Notes under the pieces: model-generated
Seen by the model: the letters and a program-made list of their open reading frames with translations, nothing else
Databases searched by the model: none
Told to the model about the DNA's origin: nothing
Part shown: positions 1,119 through 61,100 of the stretch, piece after piece
Numbering within the stretch: position 1 is the stretch's first letter
Layout of the letters: every line of letters starts with the position of its first letter
Made by a program: the position numbers and the translations under genes
Origin: Turritopsis dohrnii
Lineage: Eukaryota > Cnidaria > Hydrozoa > Anthoathecata > Oceaniidae
Assembly (NCBI GenBank): GCA_027922465.2
Contig: BQMF02000040.1
Span: 682,001-746,000, forward strand
DNA length: 64,000 bases
Direction: 5' to 3'

Positions 1119-3399
1119 CAGTACACATCCGTTAATTCGAACACCCAAGGGACCGAAAAATTTGTTCGAATTAGCGAATGTTCGAATTATCGAAATAATT
1201 GGGAAAAACATAAATTCGGACAGAATTTCTCAAAATTCTTTACTAAGAATGATTAAAATGTAAGTGATAGAATTTATTGCAAGTCTTTAAAATAATCATT
1301 AATCTTTGTTCACCTGCTGCGCGTAAGCAATAGCAGTGTTTGGAAAGAGCTGGTATCCGATCCGATTCGTAAAATTTTCACTACTTTTACGTCACTACTC
1401 ACATTGTGTATTTGAAAGTTATATCACGCGTTTTCACTACATTTTTCAGCAATGTCAGCACAGCAGGTGATCGAGACTTTCAGTCTTTCTTGTTTGCTTC
1501 TTCGCCTGGGCAAAGTGCATGTCAAGAATCCGTCCAATGTGATTTGCATAGGATTGAACAAGCTTTCCATCATTTGAAAATAAGGAGAACCGTTTCATAA
1601 GCTCCACCATCTGTAAAAGTTCGTTTTGTTTGGGGCATTCAACGGGTTCTTCTTCAGCTTCGACTTCGCCATCACAATCATCATCATCTTCGTTGCCGAC
1701 ATCTTCTGTACCCAAAACATCTGCAATGATTTCCGCGTCAGTGAATAAAATTGGCTGCACAACGGCAACTCCATCATCAACATCAGTGAAGGAAGCGGCA
1801 TCCATTGTGTCAGAAACAAGATCGGGTTGCACTGCACGAAGTTTCTCCATCTCCTCTTCCAAGTCTTTGAAAGGGTTATCATCTTCAGCGATAGCAGCGT
1901 TTTGGTTTTCAACTGATATCTTAGACTTCCGAAAACAATTCACTACTGTCTTAGCCGTCACTGCCTCCCAAGCTGAAACTAACATTTACATTCCTTGAAG
2001 TAAAGAAACATTTGGAAGTGATTTATTCTTCTCAATAGATTGGATGATCTTACGAACAACTTGTTTGCGATATTGCTTTATAAGAGAGCGAATCACGCCC
2101 TGGTCCATTGGCTTGGTCTGAGAAGTGGTGTTTGGTGGTAGGAAAAACAACTTCGTGGCTTTCAGATTTTCAATTTCCGGATGTGCTGGGCAATTGTCGA
2201 TAATCAATGCAACATGTCTTCCTCAGTATGAAATTTCTTGTCCATCTCTCTGACCCACTCTTCAAACAACACGCAATCCATCCAGCTTTTGCGTTGATTT
2301 CTGTAGCGGCATGGCGAAAACCTGATGTTCTTGAAGCACCGCGGATTTTTGGCTTTTCCAATAACGAACATTGGTAACTTTTCTCCGACTGCCTTAGCTG
2401 CTGCCAATCCAGTAATTCGAATCTTACTCATCTTTCCGCCAGAACATTTCTCAGATTTGAATTGATATGTCTTATTTGGAAAGCATTGGTAAAATAATCC
2501 AAATTCATCCGCGTTATAAATGTTGTTAAACTCGTAGTTTGATAGAAGAGTGGAAAGAGAGGTTTCCCACCAACCAGCTACCATGTTTGGCGTAACTGAT
2601 TTTGATTCACCTGATACGGTTTTGAATGTAATGTGGTTTCGTTCCTTCCAGCGCCGTAGCCAGCCATCCGCTGCCTGGAAGTTTTCAACGTTTAGCTGCT
2701 TGGCGAATGCAATCGCTTTCTCTTGGATCATGGCTGCAGATAATGGAACATTTTGACTTCGCATGCTTTTAAACCAATTCACAACAGCCTTGTCTACCAA
2801 TTCGAAGCTACCTGTTCTCAACTTTTGTCGTTTAGTGTTGGCTCCTATTTCTAGTGAACCCATAAGTTTCTCTTTGTTCTTGACCCAAGTTGACAAAGTA
2901 TTTTTTGGTACATGATATTTTGCAGCTACATCTTTATTATTCATCCCTTTTTCAAGGTCCTTTAAAGCCTGGCATTTCTCCCACAGACTTTTGTGGTTGT
3001 ACTTGCGTTTTCCAGCGATTAACATCTTTCTTGCACGTTGGTAGAAAACGAAAAGAATGAATAAAAACATTCCATCTTCAAATTTTCAAAATCGAACGTT
3101 TTTAAAATCGAACGTTTTCAAAATCGAATGTTTCCAGAATCAGATTTCAGACGCGACGCGAGAAATAAGAAAATTATGTCTTTTTCATTACAATTTTAGA
3201 TTGATAGTGCGCAAAAGTTCGAATTAACGAGTGGTTTTTTAGCCTAGGGACCGAAAAAACTGTTCGAATTAACGAAATGTTCGAATTAACGGAGTTCGAA
3301 TTAAGCGTCTTTATTAGACCAAACTCAAGGGACCGGAAAATTTGTTCGAAATAAAGAATGTTCGAATTAAGCGGCATTCGAATTAACGGATGTGTACTG
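1119..3399 (-). mobile_element. Tigger/pogo-type DNA transposon, 2281 bp, with TIRs and TA target duplication
   Basis: The ends are perfect inverted repeats starting CAGTACACATCCGTTAATTC (1119 onward; complement ends at 3399). Both ends are bordered by TA (1117-1118 and 3400-3401), as expected for Tc1/mariner-superfamily pogo/Tigger elements. A CENP-B-like transposase is encoded on the minus strand but is broken. The right end carries a second internal TIR-like module (about 3212-3305) beside the terminal one (about 3306-3399); both contain the GGGACCG...TTCGAATTAA signature. Confidence 0.93.
1455..3070 (-). pseudogene. Tigger transposase, disrupted by one frameshift and one stop
   Basis: Three consecutive minus-strand segments together cover a full Tigger transposase. 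Segment 2204-3070 has an N-terminal psq/CENP-B helix-turn-helix (KRKYNHKS, KNTLSTW), a second CENP-B DNA-binding domain (DGWLRRWKERN) and the first catalytic Asp in NIYNADEFG. Segment 1986-2207 has the second Asp (IIDNCPAHP) and the third (KPMDQGVIRS). Segment 1455-1985 is the acidic C-terminal region. A frameshift near 2207 breaks the first join and an in-frame TAA at 1986-1988 breaks the second. The likely start is the Met at about 3025. With only two lesions the copy looks young. It is non-functional as read, unless these are assembly errors. Confidence 0.9.
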
Positions 3400-14086: not shown

Positions 14087-17000
14087 TCATGCCATACAAA
14101 CGCTGGCAACTGCTGTATCGATTACAAAGAACCCAAACGATCTACCCGGAACCGTAATCGGTTGTTCAACCTCTTTACCGGGCATTTCGGGTAAATTGTC
14201 ACCTAGCATTTCCAACTTTTCCCCATTCAGTCTCACATCAGCGGATTGCAGGCCATCAGCTGTTAGAAGGTATTGGGTCACCTTCATCGTCTCGTACCCT
14301 TTCACCGAAAATGATTTTTTGCTCTTGTGAAGATTCAGAAGGTAGACAGTAACAGAGCCAGGAGTTACGCCATCACCTGGGTGTGTACAGTGGGCGTAAG
14401 CTCGAAAGTGTCCATCTTTGATAGTCTTTTCTTCTAGCTCGTTCAATTTGACCTCCGCTTTAAGGACACTTCGACCGACCAAACGCTTGAAAAGCACTGC
14501 TAAATAATAATCTGGGAAAGGTGTGTACGTCTCCTTGTCAACCATTGCATATTTCCCAGCCATAAATGATTGCCTAGCAACTACTTTCATGCAGTACTTG
14601 GCGGCAACGCCCAATTTATCAAGGTAAGCAAAGCCAGCAACATACCTGTTTGATATTTCCGCCCCACCCCCGCCCCACGCGCTCCCTGTCTCAGTTAACC
14701 ATATTGGCTTCTTGAATTTATTCTGAGATGCAATTGAGCGCATCATTCGGCATTGAAGAACAAACTCGTTTAAAACTTTCGGCTGGAGAAATTGCTCGGG
14801 AGTAGCAGTGCGGCCGTTGACATAGTACTGGTGCCACGACAATCTGTCGATAGAATCTTTCGCCTTTTTAAAAAAGTCGGTTAAGAAAGCCATGACGTTT
14901 CCACTTACTTTTGGACGTGTCGTGTCAGGACCGATTATATAACTTCTCCCAAACCGACGGGTTGATAGAATCTTGTCAAATGCTTCATAATCTTCACCAA
15001 CTTGTGAGCCGCTTAGTTCGTGATCAGGTCCAAATTTCTTATAGTGGTTTGGTTCATTTCCAAGCTGCCAATGAACATATTTGTACTGTTTTCGTTTGAC
15101 GTAGTTTATCAACTTGATGGCATTTGAGGAGTCCCAATGATTTTGTGGAGTTCTGCGGAATGCATTGACGTCAAATATTATTTGGTTGCCGGTGTCGGTG
15201 ACAAAGAGAGTGTACAAGTCGTCAAATAAATCTGCCGTCATGTTGAAATTTCGGTATGCACGAAGTTTTTCTAACTTCTTCTCTTTTACTTCTGATTCAG
15301 TCAGTACCTTTTCCGTTTTGTTCTTCTTCTTCTTTTTCTTCTTCTTTTTCCTCTTATTTTCTTTATTCAGTTGTTTCAATTTATTGGTGATTTCAACTGC
15401 ATTTTCAAGTAGATCAGCTTGTCGAGCAAACCGAAAGCCCATATTATCACCAATTGGTATTGCCATGTTTCCAAGCATCGGAACCGGGGTCATCACATTT
15501 GGTACAATGGTGATTTGTGGTCGAACGGTGGAAGGAAAATTAGTTGAGGTACTGTGAGGAATGGTGGTCGCCACAGGTAAACCAGAGGGAGGCACTCTGG
15601 CTGTGGTAGTAGATGGAGTAGTTTTCAACTCCTCAAGAAACGCACTATCTGGGTTTTCCTTTCCTTCCTCGTATCTGATGACCTTCTTCTTTTTCTTCCT
15701 TTTCTTTCCCTTCGGTTTCTGCCCAGAAGATAGGTTATTATCATCTTCATCATCATACGACGACATCTCATTCGAATTTATTTTCTTATTATTAGCTTTC
15801 TCATCGTTTTCACTTGCCAACTGGTCTGAAGCAATGTCCTTATCTTCATCGTCACCAAAAGTCGTCAACTTTTTCGACTTCTTTTTCTTTTTCTTTTTTT
15901 TGCCTTTCTTAGGTTTCTCGTTTGTCGAGGATGTTGTAGTATCTGGTAGATCACTTGGTAACTGCTCCGAATCAACGTTGTCATCTTCATCGTCACCAAA
16001 AGTCGTCAACTTTTTCGACTTCTTTTTCTTTTTCTTTTCTTTGCCTTCCTTAGGTCTCTCGTTTGTCGAAGATGTTGTAGTGTCCGGTAGATCACTTGGT
16101 AACTGCTCCGAATCAACGTTGTCATCTTCATCGTCACCAAAAGTCGTCAACTTTTTCGACTTCTTTTTCTTTTTCTTTTCTTTGCCTTCCTTAGGTCTCT
16201 CGTTTGTCGAAGATGTTGTAGTGTCCGGTAGATCACTTTGTAACTTCTCTGAATCAGCGTTGTCATCTTCATGGTCACCAAAAGTCGTCAACTTTTTCGA
16301 CTTCTTTTTCTTTTTCTTTTCTTTGCCTTCCTTAGGTCTCTCGTTTGTCGAGGATGTTGTAGTGTCCGGTAGATCACTTGGTAACTGCTCTGAATCAACG
16401 TTGTCATCTTCATCGTCACCAAAAGTCGTCAACTTTTTCGACTTCTTTTTCTTTTTCTTTTCTTTGCCTTCCTTAGGTCTCTCGTTTGTCGAGGATGTTG
16501 TAGTGTCTGGTAGATCACTTGGTAACTGCTCTGAATCAACGTTGTCATCTTCATCGTCACCAAAAGTCGTCAACTTTTTCGACTTCTTTTTCTTTTTCTT
16601 TTCTTTGCCTTCCTTAGGTCTCTCGTTTGTCGAAGATGTTGTAGTGTCCGGTAGATCACTTGGTAACTTCTCTGAATCAGCGTTGTCATCTTCATCGTCA
16701 CCAAAAGTCGTCAGCTTTTTCGACTTCTTTTTCTTTTTCTTTTCTTTGCCTTCCTTAGGTCTCTCGTTTGTCGAGGATGTTGTAGTGTCCGGTAGATCAC
16801 TTGGTAACTGCTCTGAATCAACGTTGTCATCTTCATCGTCACCAAAAGTCGTCAACTTTTTCGACTTCTTTTTCTTTTTCTTTTCTTTGCCTTCCTTAGG
16901 TCTCTCGTTTGTCGAAGATGTTGTAGTGTCTGGTAGATCACTTGGTAACTTCTCTGAATCAGCGTTGTCATCTTCATTGTCACCAAAAGTCGTCAGTTTT

Positions 17001-18127
17001 TTCGACTTCTTTTTCTTTTCTTTGTCTTCCTTAGGTGTCTCGTTTGTCGAGGATGTTGTAGTGTCTGGTAGATCACTTGGTAACTGCTCTGAATCAACGT
17101 TGTCATCTTCATCGTCACCAAAAGTCGTCAACTTTTTCGACTTCTTTTTCTTTTCTTTGCCGTCCTTTATTTTCTCGTTTGTCGAGGATGTTGAAGTATC
17201 TGGTAGATCACTTGGTAACTTCTTTGAATCAACGTTGCTATCTTCATCGTCTTCGAAAGTCGTCAACTTATTCGACTTCCTTTTCTTCTTTTTTAATTTC
17301 TGTTTATTTTTATTCGGCATTTCAGGGAGTGGTTCACCTTTATCACTTGAGGTGGGAGCGATAGTTGATGCCCTTTTTGGGTAAGGTGTGGTTAACAACG
17401 GACCTTTTTCTTTCTGAGGTGGCACAGTTATATCTTTAATTTGGTCAGTGTTTTCAGTTTGCGGATTATTTTCAGACGGTCCTGAATCGTCATTATCATT
17501 ATCATCACCATTATCACTTGGTTCGTCTACTTCACTTTCGTTACGTTCGTCTTCAGCTACATCGTTGTTTGGTTTTGTATCTGTACTTGGTGTTGTTGGG
17601 GGTTCTATAGGACTTTCAGAACTTGCATCATTCCCTGCTGACTCGTCTATACTTTCGGGACGTGTCGTTCTACTTGGCTGTTTAACTGTTAATGGTTTGG
17701 GTGTCGATGTATGTGGAGCAGCAGTGAGCCGAATTTCAGGCGCTGTTGTTGCAACTGTAGTTAGAGGTGTTGGTGTCGTTGTCGTACTAACTTGGCCAGA
17801 ACTATCTGGGATAACTCGTGGCTGAAAGTCTAAGAAATTAGCTCGTGTACCACCAATTCGTATGTAACTTGGTGACAATGCTAACAATAAATTCTTCAGT
17901 TTCACTGAATCGATATCATAACCGCTAAAGGTCTTATTCAAGTTGCCTATACTGAAGGCCAGTGACAAAAATCTACGGTTAACTTTACAGTGGGGGTCAT
18001 CGACATCAGTCTGGATGGAGATTACGTAATCAGATTTCGAATCGATTTCGGTCGAACTAGCCAAGCTGTCAATGCCTTTACCAGTAACCAGTACGAAATG
18101 AATAGCTAGTAATACTAGAGAAAACAT
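14087..18127 (-). CDS. Heparanase-like GH79 endo-beta-glucuronidase with giant repetitive linker
   Basis: Uninterrupted 1346-aa frame. Residues 1-17 form a signal peptide (MFSLVLLAIHFVLVTG). Residues about 40-104 match the small N-terminal heparanase part (LSPSYIRIGGTRANFLDF). Residues about 960-1346 match the large catalytic part: the acid/base Glu in LGNEPN (about E1025) and the nucleophile Glu in WLTETGSAWGGG (about E1146), spaced as in vertebrate heparanase, then AGFAYLDKLG and PDYYLAVLFK. Vertebrate proheparanase has a linker of about 50 residues here, excised by cathepsin L; this protein has about 840 residues of Thr/Ser-rich, acidic and Lys-rich sequence with tandem 47-residue repeats. 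Expected role: cleaving heparan sulfate outside the cell or in lysosomes. The absence of introns is odd beside the multi-exon neighbours. An alternative is an inactive or structural paralogue, but the catalytic residues are present. Confidence 0.92.
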   Translation of the reverse strand: MFSLVLLAIHFVLVTGKGIDSLASSTEIDSKSDYVISIQTDVDDPHCKVNRRFLSLAFSIGNLNKTFSGYDIDSVKLKNLLLALSPSYIRIGGTRANFLDFQPRVIPDSSGQVSTTTTPTPLTTVATTAPEIRLTAAPHTSTPKPLTVKQPSRTTRPESIDESAGNDASSESPIEPPTTPSTDTKPNNDVAEDERNESEVDEPSDNGDDNDNDDSGPSENNPQTENTDQIKDITVPPQKEKGPLLTTPYPKRASTIAPTSSDKGEPLPEMPNKNKQKLKKKKRKSNKLTTFEDDEDSNVDSKKLPSDLPDTSTSSTNEKIKDGKEKKKKSKKLTTFGDDEDDNVDSEQLPSDLPDTTTSSTNETPKEDKEKKKKSKKLTTFGDNEDDNADSEKLPSDLPDTTTSSTNERPKEGKEKKKKKKSKKLTTFGDDEDDNVDSEQLPSDLPDTTTSSTNERPKEGKEKKKKKKSKKLTTFGDDEDDNADSEKLPSDLPDTTTSSTNERPKEGKEKKKKKKSKKLTTFGDDEDDNVDSEQLPSDLPDTTTSSTNERPKEGKEKKKKKKSKKLTTFGDDEDDNVDSEQLPSDLPDTTTSSTNERPKEGKEKKKKKKSKKLTTFGDHEDDNADSEKLQSDLPDTTTSSTNERPKEGKEKKKKKKSKKLTTFGDDEDDNVDSEQLPSDLPDTTTSSTNERPKEGKEKKKKKKSKKLTTFGDDEDDNVDSEQLPSDLPDTTTSSTNEKPKKGKKKKKKKKSKKLTTFGDDEDKDIASDQLASENDEKANNKKINSNEMSSYDDEDDNNLSSGQKPKGKKRKKKKKVIRYEEGKENPDSAFLEELKTTPSTTTARVPPSGLPVATTIPHSTSTNFPSTVRPQITIVPNVMTPVPMLGNMAIPIGDNMGFRFARQADLLENAVEITNKLKQLNKENKRKKKKKKKKKNKTEKVLTESEVKEKKLEKLRAYRNFNMTADLFDDLYTLFVTDTGNQIIFDVNAFRRTPQNHWDSSNAIKLINYVKRKQYKYVHWQLGNEPNHYKKFGPDHELSGSQVGEDYEAFDKILSTRRFGRSYIIGPDTTRPKVSGNVMAFLTDFFKKAKDSIDRLSWHQYYVNGRTATPEQFLQPKVLNEFVLQCRMMRSIASQNKFKKPIWLTETGSAWGGGGAEISNRYVAGFAYLDKLGVAAKYCMKVVARQSFMAGKYAMVDKETYTPFPDYYLAVLFKRLVGRSVLKAEVKLNELEEKTIKDGHFRAYAHCTHPGDGVTPGSVTVYLLNLHKSKKSFSVKGYETMKVTQYLLTADGLQSADVRLNGEKLEMLGDNLPEMPGKEVEQPITVPGRSFGFFVIDTAVASVCMA
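15800..17305 (-). repeat. Coding tandem repeat in the heparanase linker, 141-bp period, about 11 units
   Basis: The spacing of the SKKLTTFGDDED coding block is exactly 141 bp in the central part (for example 15981 to 16122). A unit consists of a Lys run, SKKLTTFG, an acidic stretch, a SDLPDTTTSST segment and NERPKEG. Terminal units are diverged (first: LTTFEDDEDSN; last: GDDEDKDIASDQ), while central units are nearly identical, typical of homogenisation by unequal exchange. Two of the N-terminal-side units have a Lys run shorter by two codons. Confidence 0.95.
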
Positions 18128-19744: not shown

Positions 19745-21571
19745 ATGGGATCATCAAAGAGGTATACAAAAAGCAGAACTAAGAAGAGAAAGAGTTTCAA
19801 TGGTAAACGCTTTAGAGAAGCTGCCAAAAGTACAGTACAAGATGTTGTCGAGGAACCGCAGTCTGCCGGCGCTTCCTCAAAAAAGTTAGACACTACTGCC
19901 CATTCTTTGTTGGAGGATGGGTTCGAAACTGTCCAAAAAGACTGTAATTTCATCATGGAGAGTGAATCATTTATGTCCCTCATAGTTATGATTGCTAGAT
20001 GTCCAGACTGTGATGCTACCGTCAATGTTGAACACTTACTAAACGAGAAAATGGGCTTAGCGCATTATTTTGACATTTCTTGTGTTGCTTGTCCATGGAA
20101 GATAAAATTTTGTTCCTCTAAAGTATGTGATAAAGTAGAGGAAGGCTCTGGAAGAAGAGGATTTGAAATTAACCGACGAGCGATAATGGCATTTAGAGAA
20201 AACGGCCTTGGGTTTACCGGCATGGAGACATTTTGTCGCTGTATGAATATGCCGCCCCCGATGGCTAAAACGACTTTTGAAGAAATTGGCTGCAGCATTC
20301 AGAATGCCTACGTGGAATCGGCTCAGGAGTCCATGACAAAAGCAGCCAATGAAACTAGAACAAAAGGAATTAAAGATGACATGAACAATGTTGACAGAGA
20401 TGGTGTTGTCAACGTTAGCGTCAGTGGTGATGGTGCATGGCAAAAACGAGGCTATTCCTCCTTAAACGGTGTGATGACTTTAATTTCCAACGGTAAATGT
20501 ATCGACACAGAGGTAATGTCGAAAAAATGCAGACTTTGTGATGTTTGGAAAAAGAAACTAGACACAGAAGAGTATGCAAAATGGAAAGAGAGCCACCACG
20601 AATTTTGTTCGCTCAACCATGAAGGCAGCTCAGGTGCAATGGAAGTCACCGGGCTAAATCGTTTGTTCAAGCGCTCAGTCAACCTATACAAATTACGATA
20701 TACGTTTTACATTGGCGATGGTGACAGCAAATCCTTCAGTGATGTGTGTAACTCAAACCCTTATCCTGGGAATACAATAGAGAAAGGCGAATGTATTGGA
20801 CACGTTCAAAAGAGAGTTGGTACCCGTTTGCGTAAAATAAAGACCGACTACAAGGGCCGAAAACTAGGAGACGGTAAAGGGATCGGCAGAGGTAAAGGCC
20901 GTTTGACGGATAAAGTTATGAATACATTACAAAATCATTATGGCATGGCTATCCGTCAAAATACCAATAATTTATACGCAATGAAGAAATCTGTTGCCTC
21001 TGTGTTATTCCACTCGACCGCAAATCCCGATCCTGAAAAGCGCCATCAGTATTGTCCACGCCGTGAAGATTCTTGGTGTAAATATCAGAGCGACAAGATT
21101 ACAGGAGAAACCACATACAAAGGAACGTTAAATATTGACAAAACAGTGTCAGATGTCATCTCTGATGTTATCTCAAGTAAGGACTTGGGAAGCGAGGAAT
21201 TTTTGAAAAAACGCCTCCACGGCCAGACGCAGAACGTCAACGAGGCTCTTAACAATCTGATCTGGACCCGCTGTCCAAAAAGAATTTATGTGGGTAATTC
21301 CACATTGAAGACTGCTGTTGCTTCAGCAGTGATTTCATTTAATGAAGGACAGAGAGGGTTACTTTCAGTCTTTCAAAAACTTAGTATCGAACCTGGATAT
21401 TTTACAATTACCGGGTTTGAGAAAGCTGATACGATACGCGTGAAAGAGTCTGACCGCAAGGCCAAGGGAACAGAGAAAAAAAGACGTAAAAAGCTTAGAG
21501 CTGTAAGAAAAGGTTTTGAGGACAGAAACAATCAACAAGAGGGTGAAACTTATGGTTATGGAGCATTTTAA
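19745..21571 (+). CDS. Mutator-like transposase (PF20700-type)
   Basis: 608-aa intact frame without introns. It opens with a basic N-terminus, then Cys pairs at CPDC (86-89) and CVAC (113-116) that could bind zinc. The core holds the signatures of the Mutator-like transposase family common in cnidarian genomes: VSGDGAWQKRG (Asp about 229), LRYTFYIGDGDSKSF (Asp about 325), ECIGHVQKRVGTRLRK and GRGKGRLTDK. The C-terminus is Lys/Arg-rich. The first two motifs are good candidates for catalytic acidic residues; I cannot assign the third with certainty. Its place between matching inverted repeats supports a transposase rather than a domesticated gene. No frameshift or stop is visible. Confidence 0.9.
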   Translation: MGSSKRYTKSRTKKRKSFNGKRFREAAKSTVQDVVEEPQSAGASSKKLDTTAHSLLEDGFETVQKDCNFIMESESFMSLIVMIARCPDCDATVNVEHLLNEKMGLAHYFDISCVACPWKIKFCSSKVCDKVEEGSGRRGFEINRRAIMAFRENGLGFTGMETFCRCMNMPPPMAKTTFEEIGCSIQNAYVESAQESMTKAANETRTKGIKDDMNNVDRDGVVNVSVSGDGAWQKRGYSSLNGVMTLISNGKCIDTEVMSKKCRLCDVWKKKLDTEEYAKWKESHHEFCSLNHEGSSGAMEVTGLNRLFKRSVNLYKLRYTFYIGDGDSKSFSDVCNSNPYPGNTIEKGECIGHVQKRVGTRLRKIKTDYKGRKLGDGKGIGRGKGRLTDKVMNTLQNHYGMAIRQNTNNLYAMKKSVASVLFHSTANPDPEKRHQYCPRREDSWCKYQSDKITGETTYKGTLNIDKTVSDVISDVISSKDLGSEEFLKKRLHGQTQNVNEALNNLIWTRCPKRIYVGNSTLKTAVASAVISFNEGQRGLLSVFQKLSIEPGYFTITGFEKADTIRVKESDRKAKGTEKKRRKKLRAVRKGFEDRNNQQEGETYGYGAF

Positions 21572-27437: not shown

Positions 27438-28346
27438 CGGCATACACATAAGAGCAAATATCGCCCATTCCAACTAAAACCGAAGAATAATCATTAATTA
27501 CTTCACCGGTTTAATATCATGTCAAACGAGGCAAATACAAAATGGTCAAATAACAAATAACGGAAATGAAACAAAGAACAACGCTTACCAAATGCGGTGA
27601 ATGTTTCCTGTTAAATTCTACTTCTGTCATGATGAATCCTTCTCCAGGGAATGACGTAAAAGCTTTCTGAAATGCGATAGACATTTCTATAGAAATACAC
27701 TCCTCCGCAGAGATTTTTTAATTACATGTGCGAGCTGGGTAATCAAAAACATTGTTGAAGGATTTCATGTTAAATGTTCGATTGTTAACAATTCTACAAT
27801 CAGCTGGAAAAAAAATCAAAATAAGTAATATAATGATTAATACCTGCACATCAGCATTCTCACTAGGTACGTAGGAGAATTGAGCTGCAGTGAAATTGAA
27901 ATAACCACTTTTGTGAGGTTTCAAAACAAGGACGTGAGTAACATTTCCATTCGGTTGAATGCTCCTCCATTCCACATTAAGATTTCCTCTTATTACTTCA
28001 AAATCTGCCACAGGGAATGTCTTCTCGAGTAATTTAACTTGACTAGCAGCACTAAATATATTTATAAGAGTACGGTTACGACTAAAAACTTTTACATGGA
28101 AAAACTCATAAGTAACTGCATGGAAATCTTCGACATGATGAAACTGATAGATATTACCTTGACATAAACAAAGAATCAAAACTCATACCTGTTGCCAACA
28201 TTGTAAATATTATATTTTATTGTTAGTTCTCGGTTTTGAACTATGAACTTATTACCAACATTCTTTGATGCTAACAATTTTGCAGTTGATTCTAATTCGG
28301 CGGCCAATGAACATGCTACCAGTGAAGCCAACAAGAGAAGTATCAT
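27363..28346 (-). CDS. SSR2: Translocon-associated protein subunit beta (SSR2/TRAPB), four coding exons
   Basis: Coding exons: 28189-28346, 27844-28051, 27589-27666 and 27363-27473, all with AG/GT borders and matching phases, giving 184 aa (human SSR2: 183 aa). Exon 1 has the signal peptide (MILLLLASLVACSLA) and LLASKNVGN...YNIYNVGN. Exon 2 holds the lumenal domain with two N-glycosylation sites, GNVTH and FNFTAA, at positions equivalent to those in vertebrates. Exon 3 has EVEFNRKHSPHL. Exon 4 has the membrane segment WAIFALMCMPSLIIPFVLWY and a short Lys-rich cytosolic tail. A polypyrimidine-AG acceptor directly precedes the ATG, implying an upstream 5' UTR exon. The protein is part of the TRAP complex at the ER Sec61 translocon. 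Confidence 0.95.
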
Positions 28347-34751: not shown

Positions 34752-35627
34752 ATGTATCCAACTTTAATACAACTGATAGTTCAAGGTGTTGCAGCTGGTT
34801 GTGTTGTTGTTGCAGTGGTGATTACTTTAATTGTTTGGAAAGGATGTAAAGGGAAGTGTAATGCGTTCCAAGAATGGATCATCTTGTTGGTATTTCCACC
34901 AGATTTCATTGCTTTGGAACGAGTTACCGATAAAGATGGATCCAAGAAGCAGTCCTTGGTGCTTTTAGGAAACGTCGTCGATCCTGAATACGAAGCCAAA
35001 ACACGTTCATGCTGTTTCATAGCAGCTATGGCTCTTGCCGTTGAATTACTTGTTATTTTCATATCATATTGTGTTTTTAAACAACATCAAGGTTGCCCAG
35101 CTGGCGTAATCAACATGGCCGAAGATTGGCATTGCTTTTATGAAGGAAACGATTTTGACTGTTTCAATTATCTTACGGATAATTATCTTCTCTTGCAAAA
35201 GGCTTTCAGAGTAAACAAAGTGGTGTGTACAAAGATCTCTTTTTCACCTGGACTGGCCGCTGCAAGAGCGCTTGGTACATATAAACTCGTCATTTTTGTG
35301 GCAACAGTTTTTGGAAAGATAATTCAAATAAGTGGCGATCCCCAAAAAAAGAACTCGTATGGCTATTGTTTTACATTCTTTTATATCTCTTTCGTTCTTG
35401 CATACATAGGGGCATTCGTTGGCTTGGGGATTTATCTAGCGAGAGATGGCTTGACGAATTTGGAGATGTACAAGTTTATAGAATATTTGGTTTCCAGTTT
35501 TATGCTTGTGGTGTTGCCATTTGCGATGGTTTGGAGCACAAGAAAACGCTATTTTTTGGGTGAAAGTGAAGATTATCCATTGCCTAAGACTGATGCAAAG
35601 ACTGATGTCGTTTCAACGATTGCTTGA
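34752..35627 (+). CDS. Multi-pass membrane protein of unknown family (paralogue 1)
   Basis: 291-aa single-exon frame. Hydrophobic segments lie near residues 9-29, 86-109, 166-191, 205-231 and 243-264, with a further weakly hydrophobic piece at 41-52 (WIILLVFPPDFIAL). The stretch between segments 2 and 3 has four Cys (about 115, 128, 137, 159) in GCPAGVI...DWHCFYEGNDFDCFNY...VVCTK, likely two disulfides on the outside. A conserved GLAAARALGTYKL precedes segment 3 and KRYFLGESEDYPL closes the last segment. I do not recognise the family. The paralogue at 43856 shares all of these features. Orientation, channel or receptor function are open; no enzyme motif is visible. Confidence 0.8.
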   Translation: MYPTLIQLIVQGVAAGCVVVAVVITLIVWKGCKGKCNAFQEWIILLVFPPDFIALERVTDKDGSKKQSLVLLGNVVDPEYEAKTRSCCFIAAMALAVELLVIFISYCVFKQHQGCPAGVINMAEDWHCFYEGNDFDCFNYLTDNYLLLQKAFRVNKVVCTKISFSPGLAAARALGTYKLVIFVATVFGKIIQISGDPQKKNSYGYCFTFFYISFVLAYIGAFVGLGIYLARDGLTNLEMYKFIEYLVSSFMLVVLPFAMVWSTRKRYFLGESEDYPLPKTDAKTDVVSTIA

Positions 35628-43855: not shown

Positions 43856-44851
43856 ATGGATCCAGGTAAAATACAATTGATAGTTGAATGTGTTGCAGCT
43901 GGATTTGGTTTGTTTGTAGTGGTGATTTGTTCCATATCAATTTACATAGAATGCTGTAAAGAAAAAGCAAAAGCATTTCAAGAATTGATCATCTTCTTGA
44001 TATTCCCACGAGATTTCATTGCTATAGAGCGAGTAACCATTGAAGATGGATCCAAGAGGCAGTCACTGATACTTTTGGGGAACATTGTTTATCGTGAACA
44101 CGAAGCCAAAACACGTACATGCTGCTTCATAGCAGCTATGTTTCTTGGCACTGAATTACTTGTTATTTTTGCAGCATTTTCTCTTTTTAAACAAGAACAA
44201 GGTTGCGCAGCTGGCGTAATCAACAAGGCCGAAGATTGGTGGTGCTTCTATGAAGGAAACGATTTTGATTGTTTCAATTATCTTATGAAAAATGCGACAA
44301 AGAATTTCAGGGTCGACAAGGTGGTATGTACTAAATTCTCTTTTTCATTTGGACTGGCCGCTGCAAGAGTACTTGGTACATACAAACTCGTCATTTTTGT
44401 GGCAAGAATTATGGGAAAGTTTTATCAAAAGCTTGGTGATCGGAGACATGAATACTGTCGAGTGAGAGGCAAGGATTTAAGATGCTTTTGTCTTTTATTC
44501 CTCTCGATCCTTTTGTCTGTTCTATACATTGCAGCATTCGTCGGCTTGTGGATTTATTTAGCGAGGAATGGCTGGACGAATTTGGACATATACCAATTTA
44601 TAGAATATTTGGTTTCCAGTTTTTTGCTTTTTGCGTTGCCATGGGCGATGGTCAATAGTACAAGGAAACGATATTTTTTGGGCGAAAGTGAGGAATATCC
44701 ATTGACTAAGGAAAATAGACGTTTGGACACTTTAACAAACAGGAATGCTCATATCGTGTCACCAGAAAACATTATTGTGAACACTTCTAGCAAGCGAAAG
44801 AAGAAACAAAAGAATCAAAACAAGACTGATACCGTTTTAGACATCCCTTGA
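43856..44851 (+). CDS. Multi-pass membrane protein of unknown family (paralogue 2)
   Basis: 331-aa single-exon frame, clearly paralogous to 34752-35627 (shared FQE(L/W)II, F(P)RDFIAIERVT, KRQSLILLGN, EAKTRTCCFIAAM, GNDFDCFNYL, GLAAARVLGTYKL, KRYFLGESEEYPL). The same five hydrophobic segments and four loop Cys are kept. It differs by a longer loop before hydrophobic segment 4 and by a C-terminal tail of about 45 residues with a basic SSKRKKKQKNQ stretch, suggesting a different cytosolic contact or turnover signal. It probably arose by the local duplication that also copied about 1.2 kb of upstream DNA. Function unknown. Confidence 0.82.
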   Translation: MDPGKIQLIVECVAAGFGLFVVVICSISIYIECCKEKAKAFQELIIFLIFPRDFIAIERVTIEDGSKRQSLILLGNIVYREHEAKTRTCCFIAAMFLGTELLVIFAAFSLFKQEQGCAAGVINKAEDWWCFYEGNDFDCFNYLMKNATKNFRVDKVVCTKFSFSFGLAAARVLGTYKLVIFVARIMGKFYQKLGDRRHEYCRVRGKDLRCFCLLFLSILLSVLYIAAFVGLWIYLARNGWTNLDIYQFIEYLVSSFLLFALPWAMVNSTRKRYFLGESEEYPLTKENRRLDTLTNRNAHIVSPENIIVNTSSKRKKKQKNQNKTDTVLDIP

Positions 44852-48848: not shown

Positions 48849-51800
48849 ATGCCAGGCAAGCAATCAGGAGCAAGGCGTTATGAGCCACCATCCCCTTCTT
48901 TAGAAGGCTATGACAATATTGAGGAAGCATTTTTGAAAGATGTAGAAAAACTCCATGATAAACTCCCACAACCATTTCGGAGAATTGATAAAATTCTTTG
49001 GGAAGTATTCGAACATGCTTGGGTTGTTATCGAACAAAACGAAAAAGAAAGGGAATACAAACAATCCAATCAGTTAGAAATCGATAAATTATTATACGAA
49101 GAAGAGCTAACTATTTGTTCTCCTGTTCATTCATTAGCAGTATGTGAAAGTTATGTTTTCATTGGAGGTGTCACTGACGTTGTGGTTTATAAACTCCCAA
49201 GCCTTTGTAAAATCAATTCTTTCAAAAGCCATGAAAGTGATAGCTCTTGGATTGACAAGCTGTCGATACTGACTTTTTCAGAAGACAAAGTGCTTTTATT
49301 ACTTGCAAAGAAAGCAGGTAGGAATTTTAATTACATAAACTTTTAAGGCTTAAAATTTTTGCTTGAATGAAAGTTAGGGTGTATTTATATAACTGAATAT
49401 TTCCTTTTTCACAAAAAACAGTTAAAAAGAGATAATTGTATGTTGTTTATTGATTCTCTTCTGTTTATTTAATGTGGAAAATTAAGATTGAAGTACAAAG
49501 TGAAACCACTGTATTACGCAGCTGAAAGGGTTACCCTGGTGAAATATGTTTTTAAATAAATAAAAAATACGTAGCTGTTACCTTATTCTCGGAAAATTCA
49601 CAAAAGTGGAATTAGCACCATGGATGGACCAAAATATTTAAATTTTCAAATGAATTTAACATAAATCGAGGAAGACTTTTGTATATCGCATAATTTGTAT
49701 TTGTATTTGTATTTATCAAATTTTTATACAGGATGACCATTTCAGATTTTATACAAGTATATATGCAAGTAAAATTCTATTATCAATATGGGTCCTGTTG
49801 AAGTTAAAAATGTTATAATAAAAGTAAATATTAATGTTGGTAAATGATTGTAAATATATACAAAGGTTAAAATATGACCCAGAGTTGTAAGAAAATCAAG
49901 AGGAAGTGAAAATTAGTGGAAAAAGGGGGAAATGAAACACGTGTAGCATACGTGTTGGGAAGAACAAGGATGGGCTATGAGCTATGAGGGCTATAAGGCA
50001 GTAAAAATGAAAGGAATTGAGGAATGGATGAAATAGCAGCAATTAGAGACACTATACTACTCCTATTACAGTAAAAACTCAACAGTTATAACTTTGCGAC
50101 CAATCTTTTCTTATACTATAATATATATATAAGACATGAAATATAACAATAACATAATGTTACTACTTTCCTTTAACAAGAAAGGAAGGTGAATATAAGA
50201 GTCAGTATACAATAGCTCATGCTATTAAGTATCAGTTTTTTTGAGCGCACTAAGGAAGATGTCCTTAGCCTATATCTAGTCATCTTCACAGTCAATTCAA
50301 ATAATTACGCCTTTAGAATTCATGGTTCGATTCCATGTAAGCTTTTGTCCCTTACTTCTCATATTGTGATGAGACTCTGCCAGCCTTTCGAAAAGAGCGT
50401 TTATATGGCTAGCCTCTGCTGCAGATACGTCATATAACTTCTTATCATCTGGCAGAGCTTCTTGTTGTTGTTGGATATCAGTTGGTTGACAGATATCGAC
50501 TTGATGGATATCGACTTGTTGTAGGATATTGTCTTGTTGCTCTGGAATATCAACTTGTTGTACAGTATCGCCTTGTTGTGCAGTATCGCCTTGTAGTGCG
50601 ATATCACCTTATTTCACTTGATTTTTGTCTCGAATACGTCTGGAATCTCCTCTGTTCAGAAAAAGTTGATTCCCAACGGTCTTGGTAACTTCATAAGTAT
50701 GGGGGTCAAAAGGGGACTTCACTGTTGTTTTCTTCTGGCGTATCAAAACACTGTCTCCAGTTGCAATGTATTTCGCCTTTGCCTTCGTTCTTTTATCATG
50801 GTAGCTTTTCTGGGCCATTCATTTTTTGTTGTGATGTTCACGGACAGAAGCTGTGTCCTTGTCGTCTTGTTTGATGGCGATATGAGGAAGCGTAGTAGCA
50901 AGTCTACGGTTGAAGAGCATCTCTGCTGGTGATGTGTTAGTAGTAGAATGAGGAGTAGCATGGTAGTGTAGGAGAAAATTGTAAAGCTCAGATTTTAGTG
51001 ATTTTCCTTCAACAGTAGCAGTGTGCACAAGCTTGCATAGTTGTTTTACAAAGTTTTCTGCAAAACCATTGCCACTGGGGTCCTCTGCTGAAACTGGGGT
51101 CAGTTGAAACCCTTTTTCTGCTGCATACTGTGCCATTTCACCACTTGAGTAGGGTGGTCCATTGTCAGAAGTCACTGATTCTGGGATGCCATGTGTTGCA
51201 AAAACTCTGTCTAGCATTGGTTGGAGTTTTTTGAATGATGTAGAGCTTACAATATCGACTTCAGGGTATTTAGAATATTGATCGATAATGACGTGCAGGT
51301 AGTATTGTCCCCCGATTGGTCCTTTGAAATCTGCATGTAGCTTCTGCCAGGGTTTATCTGGAAGGAAGTTTGGTTCAAGTGGAACAGGTCTTGTGTAATT
51401 GTTGGATGCCATGCAACCAATGCAGCTTTCTACATAATCTTTGGCTAGTTTTCCCATTCCTGGAAACCAGCAGGTTTGTCTCAACAATCTTAGTGTCTTT
51501 TCTATGCCTTGATGGCCTTCATGAGCCAATCCAATCACATCTGCAGGGGCTAATACAGGATTTGAATTTGGGCGGCGGTAGCCGCACATTGAGCGTGACG
51601 AGCGAAGCGAGCCAGGCGAACAAATGCAGCTGGGGGTCAGGGGGGGCGCTGTAAGCCCCCTCTGTGGGGTCCGGGGGCGAAGCCCCGAAAAATTTTCGAT
51701 TTGAGGGCCTAGAATGGTCTAAAATGCGTTCTATTTTAACATACTATACATATTCTTAGTCCCTTAAAACTTTCTCATTTCTTGTTATTCGTGTCGTAAC

Positions 51801-54800
51801 AGTCTTTCCTGTAGAATCTTCAAATGTTCTTTGAAATTCAATCACGCGAATCGGCGTGTTTACCTTCCGCCATTTTTGATTTCCTTACTTTGTGTATATT
51901 TTACAGGACTATATAATCATTTCGAAAGTTTCAGTTCGTAAAGTAACCACCTAGCCTTGGTAACCAGGTACGGAAACCTCACAGAGTGCCCTTCTTTCCC
52001 AGCGCTTCTTCTCTGCTTTACGCTAAATCGTAAGTCTGATTTAGCGCAAAAGAGAGAAGAAGCGACGGTAACGAGGTTGGCTTTCCGCTTTAAAATAAGA
52101 TGAACGAGTTTTGTTTCTCCTCACGATTCCTTTTTTCCCTTTCTTTCGTTTTGCTCTTCTCACATTCTTTTTTGATCTTTTCAAAAAAAAATTTTTCCCT
52201 TTTTTTTTTGAATTTGGGCGCCTTGATCTTGGCGCCCAATAGCGGTTACTGCTATGAAATTTGACCTGTATTAGCCCCTGATCTGCTCTCAGGGATGATG
52301 GAATGATGACTTGCTCACCTCGCATGACAACATCATTGATGACATATAATTCATTGAAAACTCCTGCATACTACTTGAGGTTCTTTTAACATCCAGAATC
52401 ATCGTGAGTGTGAAGCATATGGATAAGACTTTGAAGCTCCTTGTCAATCGAGGTTACCTTCTGCAGTATGTTGACGGTGACTGCTTTTGGCATGCTGTCT
52501 TCTAGCAGCCGGTTGACAAGAATATCTCCTCCTTCTTCTGTGCACCAGCTCTCTACTTGCTGCTGCGTAAATTTGTGTGTTGGTGGGTGACGTGAGCCAT
52601 AGTCACATGGTGTGAGGCTGCCTGGTTCATTTATGACATTGTATTGGAATGACAGCAGCTTATTCCTGTGATTGCTGACATGGAGTTGCTTCGGTTTAGA
52701 TGTATTGTTATAAATTGGTACTAGGGGTGCATGATCAGTAACTATTTCGACATGAGTTCCTAAGGTATACATTTTATTCATATGCATACCGGTAACAATT
52801 GCATTGCTTTCTCTTTCAATTTGGCTGTAGGCTGCCTCCGTTTTTGTCCATGCTCAAGAAGTTTGATTTACTGGACGCCAATGTTGCTCCCCGTGAATGT
52901 CATATGCTTGGGAAAGTGTTGCTTGGGTCCCAATCGGGCTTGAGTTTACATATAGCCTCGTCTTACCTTGAGTGTCGTATGGTGCAAGCATTGTTGTACT
53001 ACAAAGTCGTCTTTGAATCTCTGCAAATGCAGATGATTCAGTTTTTCCACAGACAAATCGTGCATTTTTCTTTGTAAGAGCTCGTAGTGGTGCAGTGAGC
53101 TCTGGATATGATCTGTCACCAGATGGACCATGCAGGAATTTGCTGTTGAACTGGACTGTCTGCAAGAAGCTTTTGACATCTGCAGTATATTTAGGAGCAG
53201 GCCAGTTTTTGATAATTTGGCACTTCTCTGGGTCAGGTGACATTCCTTCTTGTGAGTAAATGTTACCAAACCATTTGACTTTTGGCTTTCCCAGCTCACA
53301 CTTGTCAGGACGTAAAGTGGCATAGTGCTCCATCAGTTTCTTTAATACTTCTCGAAGTGTCATGTCATGCCGGCGTCCTTGGCCATGGACAAGAATGTCG
53401 TCTTTGATGTGGATAGCATTTTTGCAGTCTTTGATAAGCTCCTGATCTTCTTTTGTATTTCGCTACTTGCTGGGCTTGTTCCCATAACCATACGTTTATA
53501 TTGGTAAATGCCCCAGGGGGTGCGGAAGGCGTAAAACTTCCGTGCCTTCTCTTCAATTTCAAACTGGTGGTAACAGTTAGTCATGTCTAGAGTGGTAAAT
53601 CTGTCACTACCCTTTAACTGATGCCGGAGCATTTCTGGTGTAGGAATTGGTTCATGAGTTGTGTAAATTTCTTTGTTCACAGCTTAACAAATGTTACTCT
53701 AATTCGATCAGTGTTTTTCTTGTCAGTGATAACCAGGTTACTAATGAAGGTCCCTGGTAATTCTTCAGTTATTGGTCCCTTAATGACATCATCCTTTAAC
53801 ATTGCTGCTATCTCAGCTTTGAGTCTGGAGATGTAGTGTAAGGGAATTCTCCTTGGAGGTTGCACAACAGGTTTGACATCATCTTTCACGTGAATCTTTA
53901 TTGGATTTTGTTGGATTTTGTTGGATTTTTTTTTATTGATTTTGCCCGTTGAGTGCGAGAACACAGAGGAGAATTCTTTAACGATTTTGTCTATGTTTAA
54001 ATCTATTTCTCGCTGTGTCTGTTTGTCAGATTTAGAGTGTTCAGGATAGTCCTCATTTGAAGAATCAGATAGATGTTGTATGACCTCTTCTGAGGCCCCA
54101 ACTACATTGAGTGTTCGCCCAGAAGGGATTGTTCTTTCGGGTCATCAACAACATACACCCATGTTGTAATAGTTGCTCCTCGTTTTGCCTGAAGAGTGAC
54201 ATGAGCTTTGCCTTTTATTGGAAAGTGGTAGGCAGTACCATATGGTCTAAATCGTTTTGAAGTCTTTACAAATTTACACTTATTATCTTCGTGTAATTTT
54301 TCTCTGATCAAACTCCATCTGTGCTTATTGTTTTACGTTCGTGCATCACGGACCACATCAAGATTCAGTGTTAACATTTTCATAAGAAACTTTTACTTAA
54401 TTAGAAAAATCAAGGTTCTGCAAAATTGTGTGGGTTGACGTCAACTAGTGTCACATCCCTCCCCCCTCCCCCGTCAACCAGCGTCAACTTTAGCATAACC
54501 CCCCTCCCCCTTCCCCCTTCATTTGTGAACAGTCCCTTAGCTCATCGTAAGATACATTGTCTTGTAGAGCTCTCTCACGTAGTTTTGGATTAGATGTCTG
54601 TAATACTATTGCATCAACTGCTGCTTGTTTACAATCATAATTTTCGTAAGAGATGAGTTTAGCGGCGTTGCTTACTTCCTGTGACCACTTCTCAAATGAC
54701 TTCTGTCCTTGGAAGAAGTTTCAAAACAACATGTTACGTTGGACAACAATGTTTGTCCTGCTTATTAATCCTTCTTTAATCTTCTTGACAGTTGACTGAT

Positions 54801-58100: not shown

Positions 58101-61100
58101 ATAATGAGAGTCCATCCACCTCTTTTGTTTTTCCTTTTCTTTGATTGTCAAACGTTATTTAAAAGAACTTTCACTAACCAATTTATTTGTATTTATCTTA
58201 GTATTGTTTTGTCTTGTTTTTGACTTTTCTTCATTTGAAGTATTCAAAATTCTAAACAATATTACTAAAACTGTAATATTAGTGAAAACACTTTATCTTG
58301 AAAAACCAATGTTTTAGCCTTTTCAACGTAAAAAAAAATCAGAGTTTTCAACTGTCTTCCTAATTACAACATACATATATGTATTGGTTCTTAGGAAGTT
58401 AAAGCTATTCTTCAAAACCATGTTTAAATTGTAACCAATTTTTTTGATTCAAAACAACCATAAGCGCCTCGTATACTATCACTGCAATTTCATCATAACC
58501 TCTTGGGTTGAAGTGTACACCATCATCCCATATATTCATTCCATTCTGATGATGCAAATGCTCCAGTCTCTCCGACAAATCAACAAAGACAGAATGGTTA
58601 CGTTGCTCTTGCACGTACAAACGTAGATGGTTATTTATAAGGACTCTGTAATTCCTATAAAACGCGGTGTTCGGTTTTCGTTCGATAGATATCGGTGGTA
58701 TTGATACGGCTAACGTTTTTACATTGTATCGGTGGCTATTGGTATGAAGCTCTTCAATGTGTTCGGCTATTTCAACAGCCGCAACGTTCAGCGAGGTTTC
58801 ATTTTTATACAATGTATTCTGGTGTTTTTTTATCATATGGACATAGTCGTTGGTACCAGCTAGTATAATAAAAACAGTTTTTTGGTGTTGATCTTTGATG
58901 ATCCCATCTTCAAGTCTTATTTTCATATCATCGACTCTTTCACCGCTCACACCAGCATTTTCAACCGTTATATTTTTCCCAGATTGTTTCAAGAGGGCGT
59001 TTAGATGTATGGTGTACGGGTGGAATTTCTTTGATTTAGGCCAGTCGTAAAGACCTTCAGTTAAGCTATCACCAAATGCTACTATACGAATAGGTGGTTT
59101 GTGCCATGTGCGTCTCTTGTCGGTGGTATTGCTGTCTAAAAGCTTGGTGAACGTCTGTTTGTTGTAAAGAACTAGCATAGCAACTAAAATGAAAAATATG
59201 AACTTCTTGTGAGCTTTCCATTCCATTTGCTTATCTACTTATACTAATTCGCAATCGTGTGTAACACATTTAACTTAGAGAGTGTTTTGTTTTTGTTTTT
59301 TTAATGGTCAAAATCTTCTTAATCGTGGTCATATAGCGGCAGTTCGACCACGCAAGACACATTCACGATTAGTATAATAGCACGTGGCATTTGACGTCAG
59401 ATGTTTTTGTGACCACGGGGAACCATTGCATTGCATCCCCAAACGAACGCGACGTTTTTGGGAAAATATCTCGAGAACCAATAGGGACAACTGACGTATT
59501 TTAGGGTCAGCGATACGGGTGTTAGGGTGACGCAACATTTGAGTCAAAATTTTATTTGGTACTGCGGATATGACGTCATTAAAATCTTTGATCGACGATA
59601 TCTCTGCAACGGTTGATCGTAGCGAAACGATCCCATACAAATTTTTGCTCAGTTTTTCAAGCTCTACAACATGGGCTCCATCTCTTTTCAAGATTCGGTG
59701 ATTTAATTTTTCGTCACCTGTTTTCGTCACAATGTTTTCGAAATAAAAACCGTAAAAAACTTTTACGCGAGATACTAGTCTTATTATACTAATTCGCATT
59801 TGTGCATACCACTTTTATTTTAGAGAGTGACATATTTAGTTTTAATTTACGGTCATCGTCCTCTTATGTGCGCGTAAAACCACGTAGAAGCGAGAGACAC
59901 TTTTTTCACGATCATTCCAAAAGCACGTGGCATCATTTGACGTCAGTTTTTTATAATCACGGGGAATCATTGCATTGCATCCCTAATCGAACGCGACGTT
60001 TTTGGGGAAATATCTCGAGAACCAATAGGGAAAACTGACGTTTTTTGGGGTCAGCGATACGGGTGATGGGGTGACGCATTATTTGGGCCTAAATTTTATT
60101 TGGTACTGCGGATATGACGTCATCAAATCTTTGACCGATGATATCTCTGCAACGGTTGGTCGTAGCGAAACGATCCCATACATTTTTTTGATCAGTTTTT
60201 CGAGCTCTACAACATGGTTACATTTTCCGTTTCCAATTCCTAAATTGAATTTTCATTACGGGGATCGTTCACGGGAAAGGCGATTTTGACCCATCCTTTT
60301 CGAAGTTAAGTTCGGTAAAAAGTTTTTACTCGGGATACTAGTTATCTTTCTATCTTTTGATGTGTTTATCATATTCTGCATTGATTAATTAACCACTAGA
60401 CATCGGTTAAATCATGCCGAACTCCAATGGTCGACTATCGTAACACTCCCTGCAAGAATGTACTTACGAACAGCGCAAACGAACATTTTTGACTGTTTTT
60501 CGTCGATTTATAATGTCTAGAATTTGCAAGGATTGTAAACCTAAAAAATGCAGCCGGCCATGCTAGCAAGTCAGTGACATTTTGATAATCTTATGACTTG
60601 CACGTTCTTCCTTGAACTTGAATAGTACTGACCAGAAATTGTTCAAAATCATCGATAGCGACGAAGACGACGACGAAACCCTATTCCAATAGTCAGCTAG
60701 CCAAAGCCCCTAGCCAATAAAGTTTTAGAATTTACATTGATGTCTTAAAATGTTTTGTTGGAAAACCACCATTTTTGAATGAACGTGGCATGATGTAACA
60801 ATTTATCCTCGATATCCCAGACCAAAGTAAAATAAATTCCAGTTCCAATAACTTCCTAATGAAATATTTTAAGTCTAACAGCTGGATTCCTAACTATACA
60901 TTTTGTTTCTGGAATTATTTTTTTCGTTTTTTTTTATATAAAAGATATGCTCGATGTGTTATTATAAACCTTTTTTATTTCAGACGCGCACTTTAACAGC
61001 ATAGCAGTGTTTTGGAAGGGGAGTAACACAATGTATATATACCCTCTCAAGTCCATGAAAGGTAGCGTATAATTCTGCCGAATCCTCTGTTGTGTTGAAT

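Follow-up and report, generated by a model that had tools for sequence, protein, structure and literature searches.

A heparanase gene of Turritopsis dohrnii with an 855-residue repetitive linker at the position of the proenzyme lid

Why would a heparanase carry several hundred repetitive residues between its two halves? This question is raised by a gene located on the reverse strand of a 64,000-nucleotide stretch of the Turritopsis dohrnii genome (contig BQMF02000040.1, positions 682,001 to 746,000), hereafter called the window. In human proheparanase, a linker covers the active-site cleft and is removed by cathepsin L (PMC12406646). The present analysis identified a linker of 855 residues at the same place in the jellyfish protein, and long linkers at this place in other lineages. 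The sequence comparisons indicate that the gene is real, functional-looking and common to several lineages.

Two heparanase halves around a giant linker

The gene is an open reading frame (ORF) uninterrupted by stops, with the following features (coordinates are those of the window):

14087..18127, reverse strand: heparanase (GH79) gene, one open frame of 1346 aa (ORF list; Pfam and PDB matches)
18080..18127, reverse strand: probable signal peptide, hydrophobic N-terminus, residues 1-16 (by eye from the sequence)
17819..18079, reverse strand: N-terminal part resembling the 8-kDa subunit, residues 17-103, profile match 44-103 (PDB match 7rg8_B, E 3e-4; profiles)
15254..17818, reverse strand: linker, residues 104-958, 855 aa (profiles of both halves; composition)
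17270..17818, reverse strand: first part of the linker, Thr/Pro-rich then acidic, residues 104-286 (sequence composition)
15810..17294, reverse strand: 141-bp tandem array, 10.6 copies, 47-aa unit KLTTFGDDEDDNVDSEQLPSDLPDTTTSSTNERPKEGKEKKKKKKSK (repeat scan; translation)
15422..15433, reverse strand: candidate convertase site RFAR at residues 899-902, 59 residues short of the linker end (motif picked post hoc)
15323..15349, reverse strand: nine consecutive Lys, residues 927-935 (sequence)
14090..15253, reverse strand: C-terminal part resembling the 50-kDa subunit, residues 959-1346 (PDB match; profiles)
15053..15055, reverse strand: acid/base catalytic Glu E1025, human E225 (PDB alignment; motif)
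14690..14692, reverse strand: nucleophile Glu E1146, human E343 (PDB alignment; motif)

The PDB sequence search matched human heparanase across residues 956-1344 (best 2.7e-76, 5la4) and the 8-kDa subunit across residues 27-104 (7rg8_B), and the sole Pfam domain of the protein at E <= 0.001 is GH79n (950-1173, 7.2e-18). E1025, found in WQLGNEPN, and E1146, found in WLTETGSAWGGG, occupy the positions of human E225 and E343, to which the catalytic roles are assigned (PMC12406646). On these matches, the protein qualifies as a heparanase with the catalytic Glu pair and an N-terminal segment predicted to complete the barrel. This agrees with the initial annotation, which had proposed a heparanase with both halves intact, both catalytic Glu and a repetitive linker of more than 800 residues in the position of the 6-kDa linker (about 840 residues in that annotation, 855 by profiles).

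The structure model of a homologue from Hydractinia symbiolongicarpus (P0001) aligns with 5la4 across residues 27-1108, and its nearest folds also include leech hyaluronidase and bacterial beta-glucuronidases. Both halves of the jellyfish protein would thus form one GH79 barrel plus beta-sandwich: their folding together, for which the initial annotation had suggested structure prediction, was obtained for the Hydractinia homologue and is carried over to T. dohrnii from a core identity of 63%. In the same model, the N-terminus of the homologue and its counterpart of the Lys/Glu-rich linker end are predicted as helices. The jellyfish enzyme therefore shares with human HPSE1 (proheparanase, GH79; PDB 5la4, 5e8m) the catalytic pair, the halves split around a linker and the fold as modelled for Hydractinia. 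It differs by its linker, which is repetitive and probably disordered whereas the human one is a 6-kDa helical lid, and which has 855 residues compared to about 50 in vertebrate HPSE1-type precursors.

The linker (T/S 22%, D/E 21%, K 18%, no Cys) comprises in order a Thr/Pro-rich part, an acidic part, the repeat units, a second Thr/Pro part, the nine Lys and the short Lys/Glu-rich end; over most of its length, blocks of Lys are interleaved with acidic and Thr-rich ones. The tandem repeat scan gave 94% matches between copies of the 141-bp unit. Of the ten whole units, the first two encode 45 aa and the other eight 47 aa, and every unit is a multiple of three bases long. Since an antisense frame (15561-17384, 607 aa) is likewise open, an open frame alone is little proof here. 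For the array, pooled pairwise pN/pS is 0.36 (ten units) or 0.26 (eight units), lower than in any of the five remaining frames (0.45 to 1.62). Counted as distinct substitutions, 6 of 14 are synonymous vs 4.8 expected, which is not significant (P = 0.34). Stronger evidence than this weak test comes from the homologues, whose long linkers occupy the same position.

Relatives and paralogues

Relatives were retrieved by three protein searches: one with words from the C-terminal part and allowed lengths of ~740-2355 (16 matches), one with lengths of ~218-695 (51 matches) and one with alignment, scored among the 8000 candidates with the most shared words (49 matches). Of 103 sequences (the jellyfish protein, its three paralogues and 99 other proteins), 90 allowed the linker to be measured; the 13 others were dropped because the linker-adjoining end of one half is missing. 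The median is 38 residues (n = 90). Only five linkers exceed 500 residues: those of T. dohrnii, of the top match P0001 (1108 aa, 59% identity; linker of 626) and of the ENA proteins P0002-P0004 (1589-1598 aa; 105, 9 and 9 member sequences), which share the T. dohrnii layout with linkers of 1111-1120. Fourteen others have 187-284 residues; 13 of them, including P0077 from Rhopilema esculentum, cluster together in the tree, and the remaining one (P0053) groups with two of those 13 in another comparison. Among named anthozoans, the linker has 32 residues in Actinia and 38 in Dendronephthya, and it has 26 in P0046, which groups with Dendronephthya; vertebrate linkers have 56 (frog) and 54 residues (hagfish), and those of named crustacean species reach 177. 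P0023 has an incomplete start and at least 304 residues ahead of its C-terminal part. By eye, the C-terminal part of the mantis shrimp heparanase P0005 (Oratosquilla oratoria, 888 aa) seems to be interrupted after GPDITRPK by a second long insertion.

In a tree of 45 rows built without linkers, the proteins of T. dohrnii and Hydractinia and P0002/P0004 fall into one clade of 11 rows (99/99), the position of Hydractinia as sister to T. dohrnii being weakly supported (81/51). A second clade of 14 rows (100/99) includes P0077, and P0079 with a linker of just 14. We call these clades hydrozoan-type and Rhopilema-type, labels coined in this work for groups with few species-named members. P0001 shares the layout and a K/T/D-rich linker with T. 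dohrnii. Composition is alike in the three long hydrozoan-type lineages (T/S 21-22%, D/E 17-21%, K 10-18%), the P0002 linker containing an extended acidic stretch and lacking a strong repeat. The Rhopilema-type proteins have their enlarged linkers at the same place, but these are richer in Pro and in SG dipeptides and have a dibasic site at their end. The linker-length search suggested by the initial annotation revealed counterparts of an architecture of which it knew no described case: in Hydractinia, in P0002-P0004 and, with enlarged linkers, in 14 proteins of the Rhopilema clade.

The architecture is nonetheless unusual, and searches of open-licence PMC papers brought up no account of long linkers in a jellyfish or hydroid heparanase; as far as these searches show, it looks like an undescribed variant of a well-known enzyme. 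P0001 is labelled proteoglycan 4-like in databases. Proteoglycan 4 (lubricin) also has Thr/Lys/Pro-rich repeats, which likely explain this name. It carries Somatomedin B and hemopexin domains, whereas no such domain, and none other than GH79n, was found in the T. dohrnii protein (Pfam, same threshold). As to expression in Hydra, heparanase-like cDNAs are reported as the third most frequent of a head-enriched library of Hydra oligactis, with 54 clones, and 7 for another gene (PMC4820225), and heparanase is named among the raised lysosomal genes of symbiotic Hydra (PMC7859245).

A search of the assembly (435,911,712 bases, 891 contigs) with the C-terminal part revealed at least four GH79 loci in T. 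dohrnii; each is a single open frame in which the two catalytic motifs can be read. Only one of these four carries the giant linker. L002 (519 aa) has a linker of 29 and the two others (L003 and L004, 476 aa each) have none; the latter two adjoin each other (contig C50, 912-920 kb), with no linker between their halves.

Role and origin of the linker

Judged by position, the giant linker emerges from the barrel where the human linker does. Shielding and release are therefore the natural first guess. Under the reading that we favor, with middling confidence, the gene encodes a working secreted heparanase whose lid loop has grown to 855 residues, with latency, tethering and excision as inferred properties. 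Lineage-specific tandem duplication would have lengthened the linker; the precursor would be secreted, or stored, in a latent form, with the linker shielding the active-site cleft and its Lys blocks holding it on sulfated glycans, until proteases cutting at basic residues excise the linker and yield a two-chain active enzyme.

In the Rhopilema-type proteins (P0079 left out), all 14 linkers have a candidate cutting site, KR or RR, in the 40 residues preceding the C-terminal part, compared to 1.0 expected. In the last 100 linker residues of the hydrozoan-type proteins, the motif [RKQ][FY]x[RK], which is the RFAR of T. dohrnii, is found in 9 of 12 (2.0 expected), or 7 of 10 without P0003 and P0004 (1.9 expected), but it is not above chance row by row. 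Several results weigh against the favored reading. This motif was chosen after viewing the rows, which are related, so that counts are not independent, and it is missing from the linkers of P0021, P0022 and the nearest relative, Hydractinia. KR/RR in the last 40 residues of hydrozoan-type linkers reaches only 6 of 11 (3.6 expected, P = 0.08, P0003 left out), and RxxR (5/12 vs 3.6 expected) and [KR]x[KR]R (5/12 vs 4.1 expected) are at chance; an enrichment of these standard furin-like motifs was therefore rejected. Furthermore, the linker has a net charge of zero and is therefore a polyampholyte, not a plain cationic tail, so that the case for a simple cationic tether is weaker. Linker length and sequence are both loosely conserved, since linkers span 36 to 1120 residues in the hydrozoan-type clade and P0002-P0004 are 84-87% identical in the linker compared to 96-98% in the C-terminal part. 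Finally, the repeats are lineage-specific (47 aa in T. dohrnii, a different unit of ~70 aa in Hydractinia), which argues against a finely tuned function.

A Y-R/Y-K pair before the C-terminal part was also considered as a cathepsin L site, with reference to the human site, which we take to be Y156-Q157. This candidate was dropped, as it corresponds to human 160-161 in the structural alignment and thus belongs to the mature chain.

It is also possible, but unlikely, that the linker is never removed and that a single-chain enzyme, open to its substrate, keeps it as a lasting tether or spacer within the mesoglea, the mucus or the outer coat of the polyp. The alternation of Lys with acidic and Thr-rich blocks would fit such a role, leech hyaluronidase (7eyo) aligns across both halves as one chain, and hydrozoan outer coats contain glycosaminoglycans, the presence of heparan sulfate being left undecided in that source (PMC5316283). 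However, the human enzyme requires lid removal (PMC12406646), and the basic sites near the linker end (14/14 Rhopilema-type; 9/12 hydrozoan-type with the post hoc motif) suggest cutting. Mostly neutral growth, in which any disordered chain is acceptable in place of the lid loop and replication slippage of Lys, Thr and Asp codons expanded it with no new function, appears rather improbable to us. It would account for the lineage-specific repeats, the range of lengths among relatives (36-1120), the fast sequence change and the absence of a significant selection signal in the array; it accounts less easily for the similar composition of three long lineages, the enlarged linkers of two clades, more than 2.5 kb free of stops and the short linkers of the remaining three loci detected in T. 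dohrnii. More speculatively, jellyfish and hydroid heparanases could be self-tethered proenzymes whose mucin-like or glycosaminoglycan-carrying linker serves as their own decoy substrate or anchor until cutting at its basic end, a proposal that we consider doubtful. SG dipeptides number 72 in Rhopilema-type linkers (34.3 after shuffling) and 14 in hydrozoan-type ones (14.9 after shuffling). In the linkers of P0024, P0025, P0053 and P0068-P0078, many SG dipeptides adjoin acidic residues (none in P0069) and resemble glycosaminoglycan attachment sites.

It is very unlikely that the gene is an artefact, such as an assembly join or an unspliced intron, or a dead, decaying copy. A single intronless open frame could suggest such a case, and near-identical array units can be miscounted. 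However, two other lineages have the same layout, which makes a join very improbable, all four GH79 loci found are single open frames, and the assembly is very probably TUR_r2.0.1 (891 sequences, 435,923,997 bases, GC 34.7%), which derives from long PacBio reads together with Illumina reads (PMC9835754). A word scan, too simple to replace RNA data, identified two donor-like words in the linker, at 17787 and 15758, but no acceptor there with a tract of 75% pyrimidine; splicing of the repeat was therefore rejected. A retrogene would fit the intronless frame, but the single open frames of all four loci give no sign of a recent copy. The array DNA has no second place in the assembly according to a search that skips simple repeats, so capture of a dispersed repeat was also rejected.

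Genomic surroundings and significance

Other frames of the window include a Mutator-like transposase (608 aa, 19745-21571, forward strand, PF20700, 8.2e-72) ~1.6 kb upstream of the heparanase start, and a Tc5/CENP-B/DDE_1 transposase (288 aa, 2204-3070, reverse strand). Retroelement pieces lie at 50819-53363 (reverse strand), with integrase zinc-binding and core domains at 50819-51589 and, by eye, a polymerase-like second frame at 52854-53363. The window also contains a GDSL lipase/acylhydrolase frame (273 aa, 58405-59226, reverse strand), an exon-like frame with a TRAP-beta match (27718-28179, reverse strand, 3.7e-19) and two frames that look alike by eye and membrane-protein-like, with no Pfam match (34752-35627 and 43856-44851, forward strand, 291 and 331 aa).

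This work exposes a misleading database label, a Hydractinia heparanase being named proteoglycan 4-like. Human heparanase is switched on by removing a short lid. The lids of the proteins described here form a natural series whose length runs from 0 to more than 1100 residues in one animal phylum and from 0 to 855 in one genome, which lets one ask whether the task of the lid is to shield, to tether or whether it is merely tolerated.
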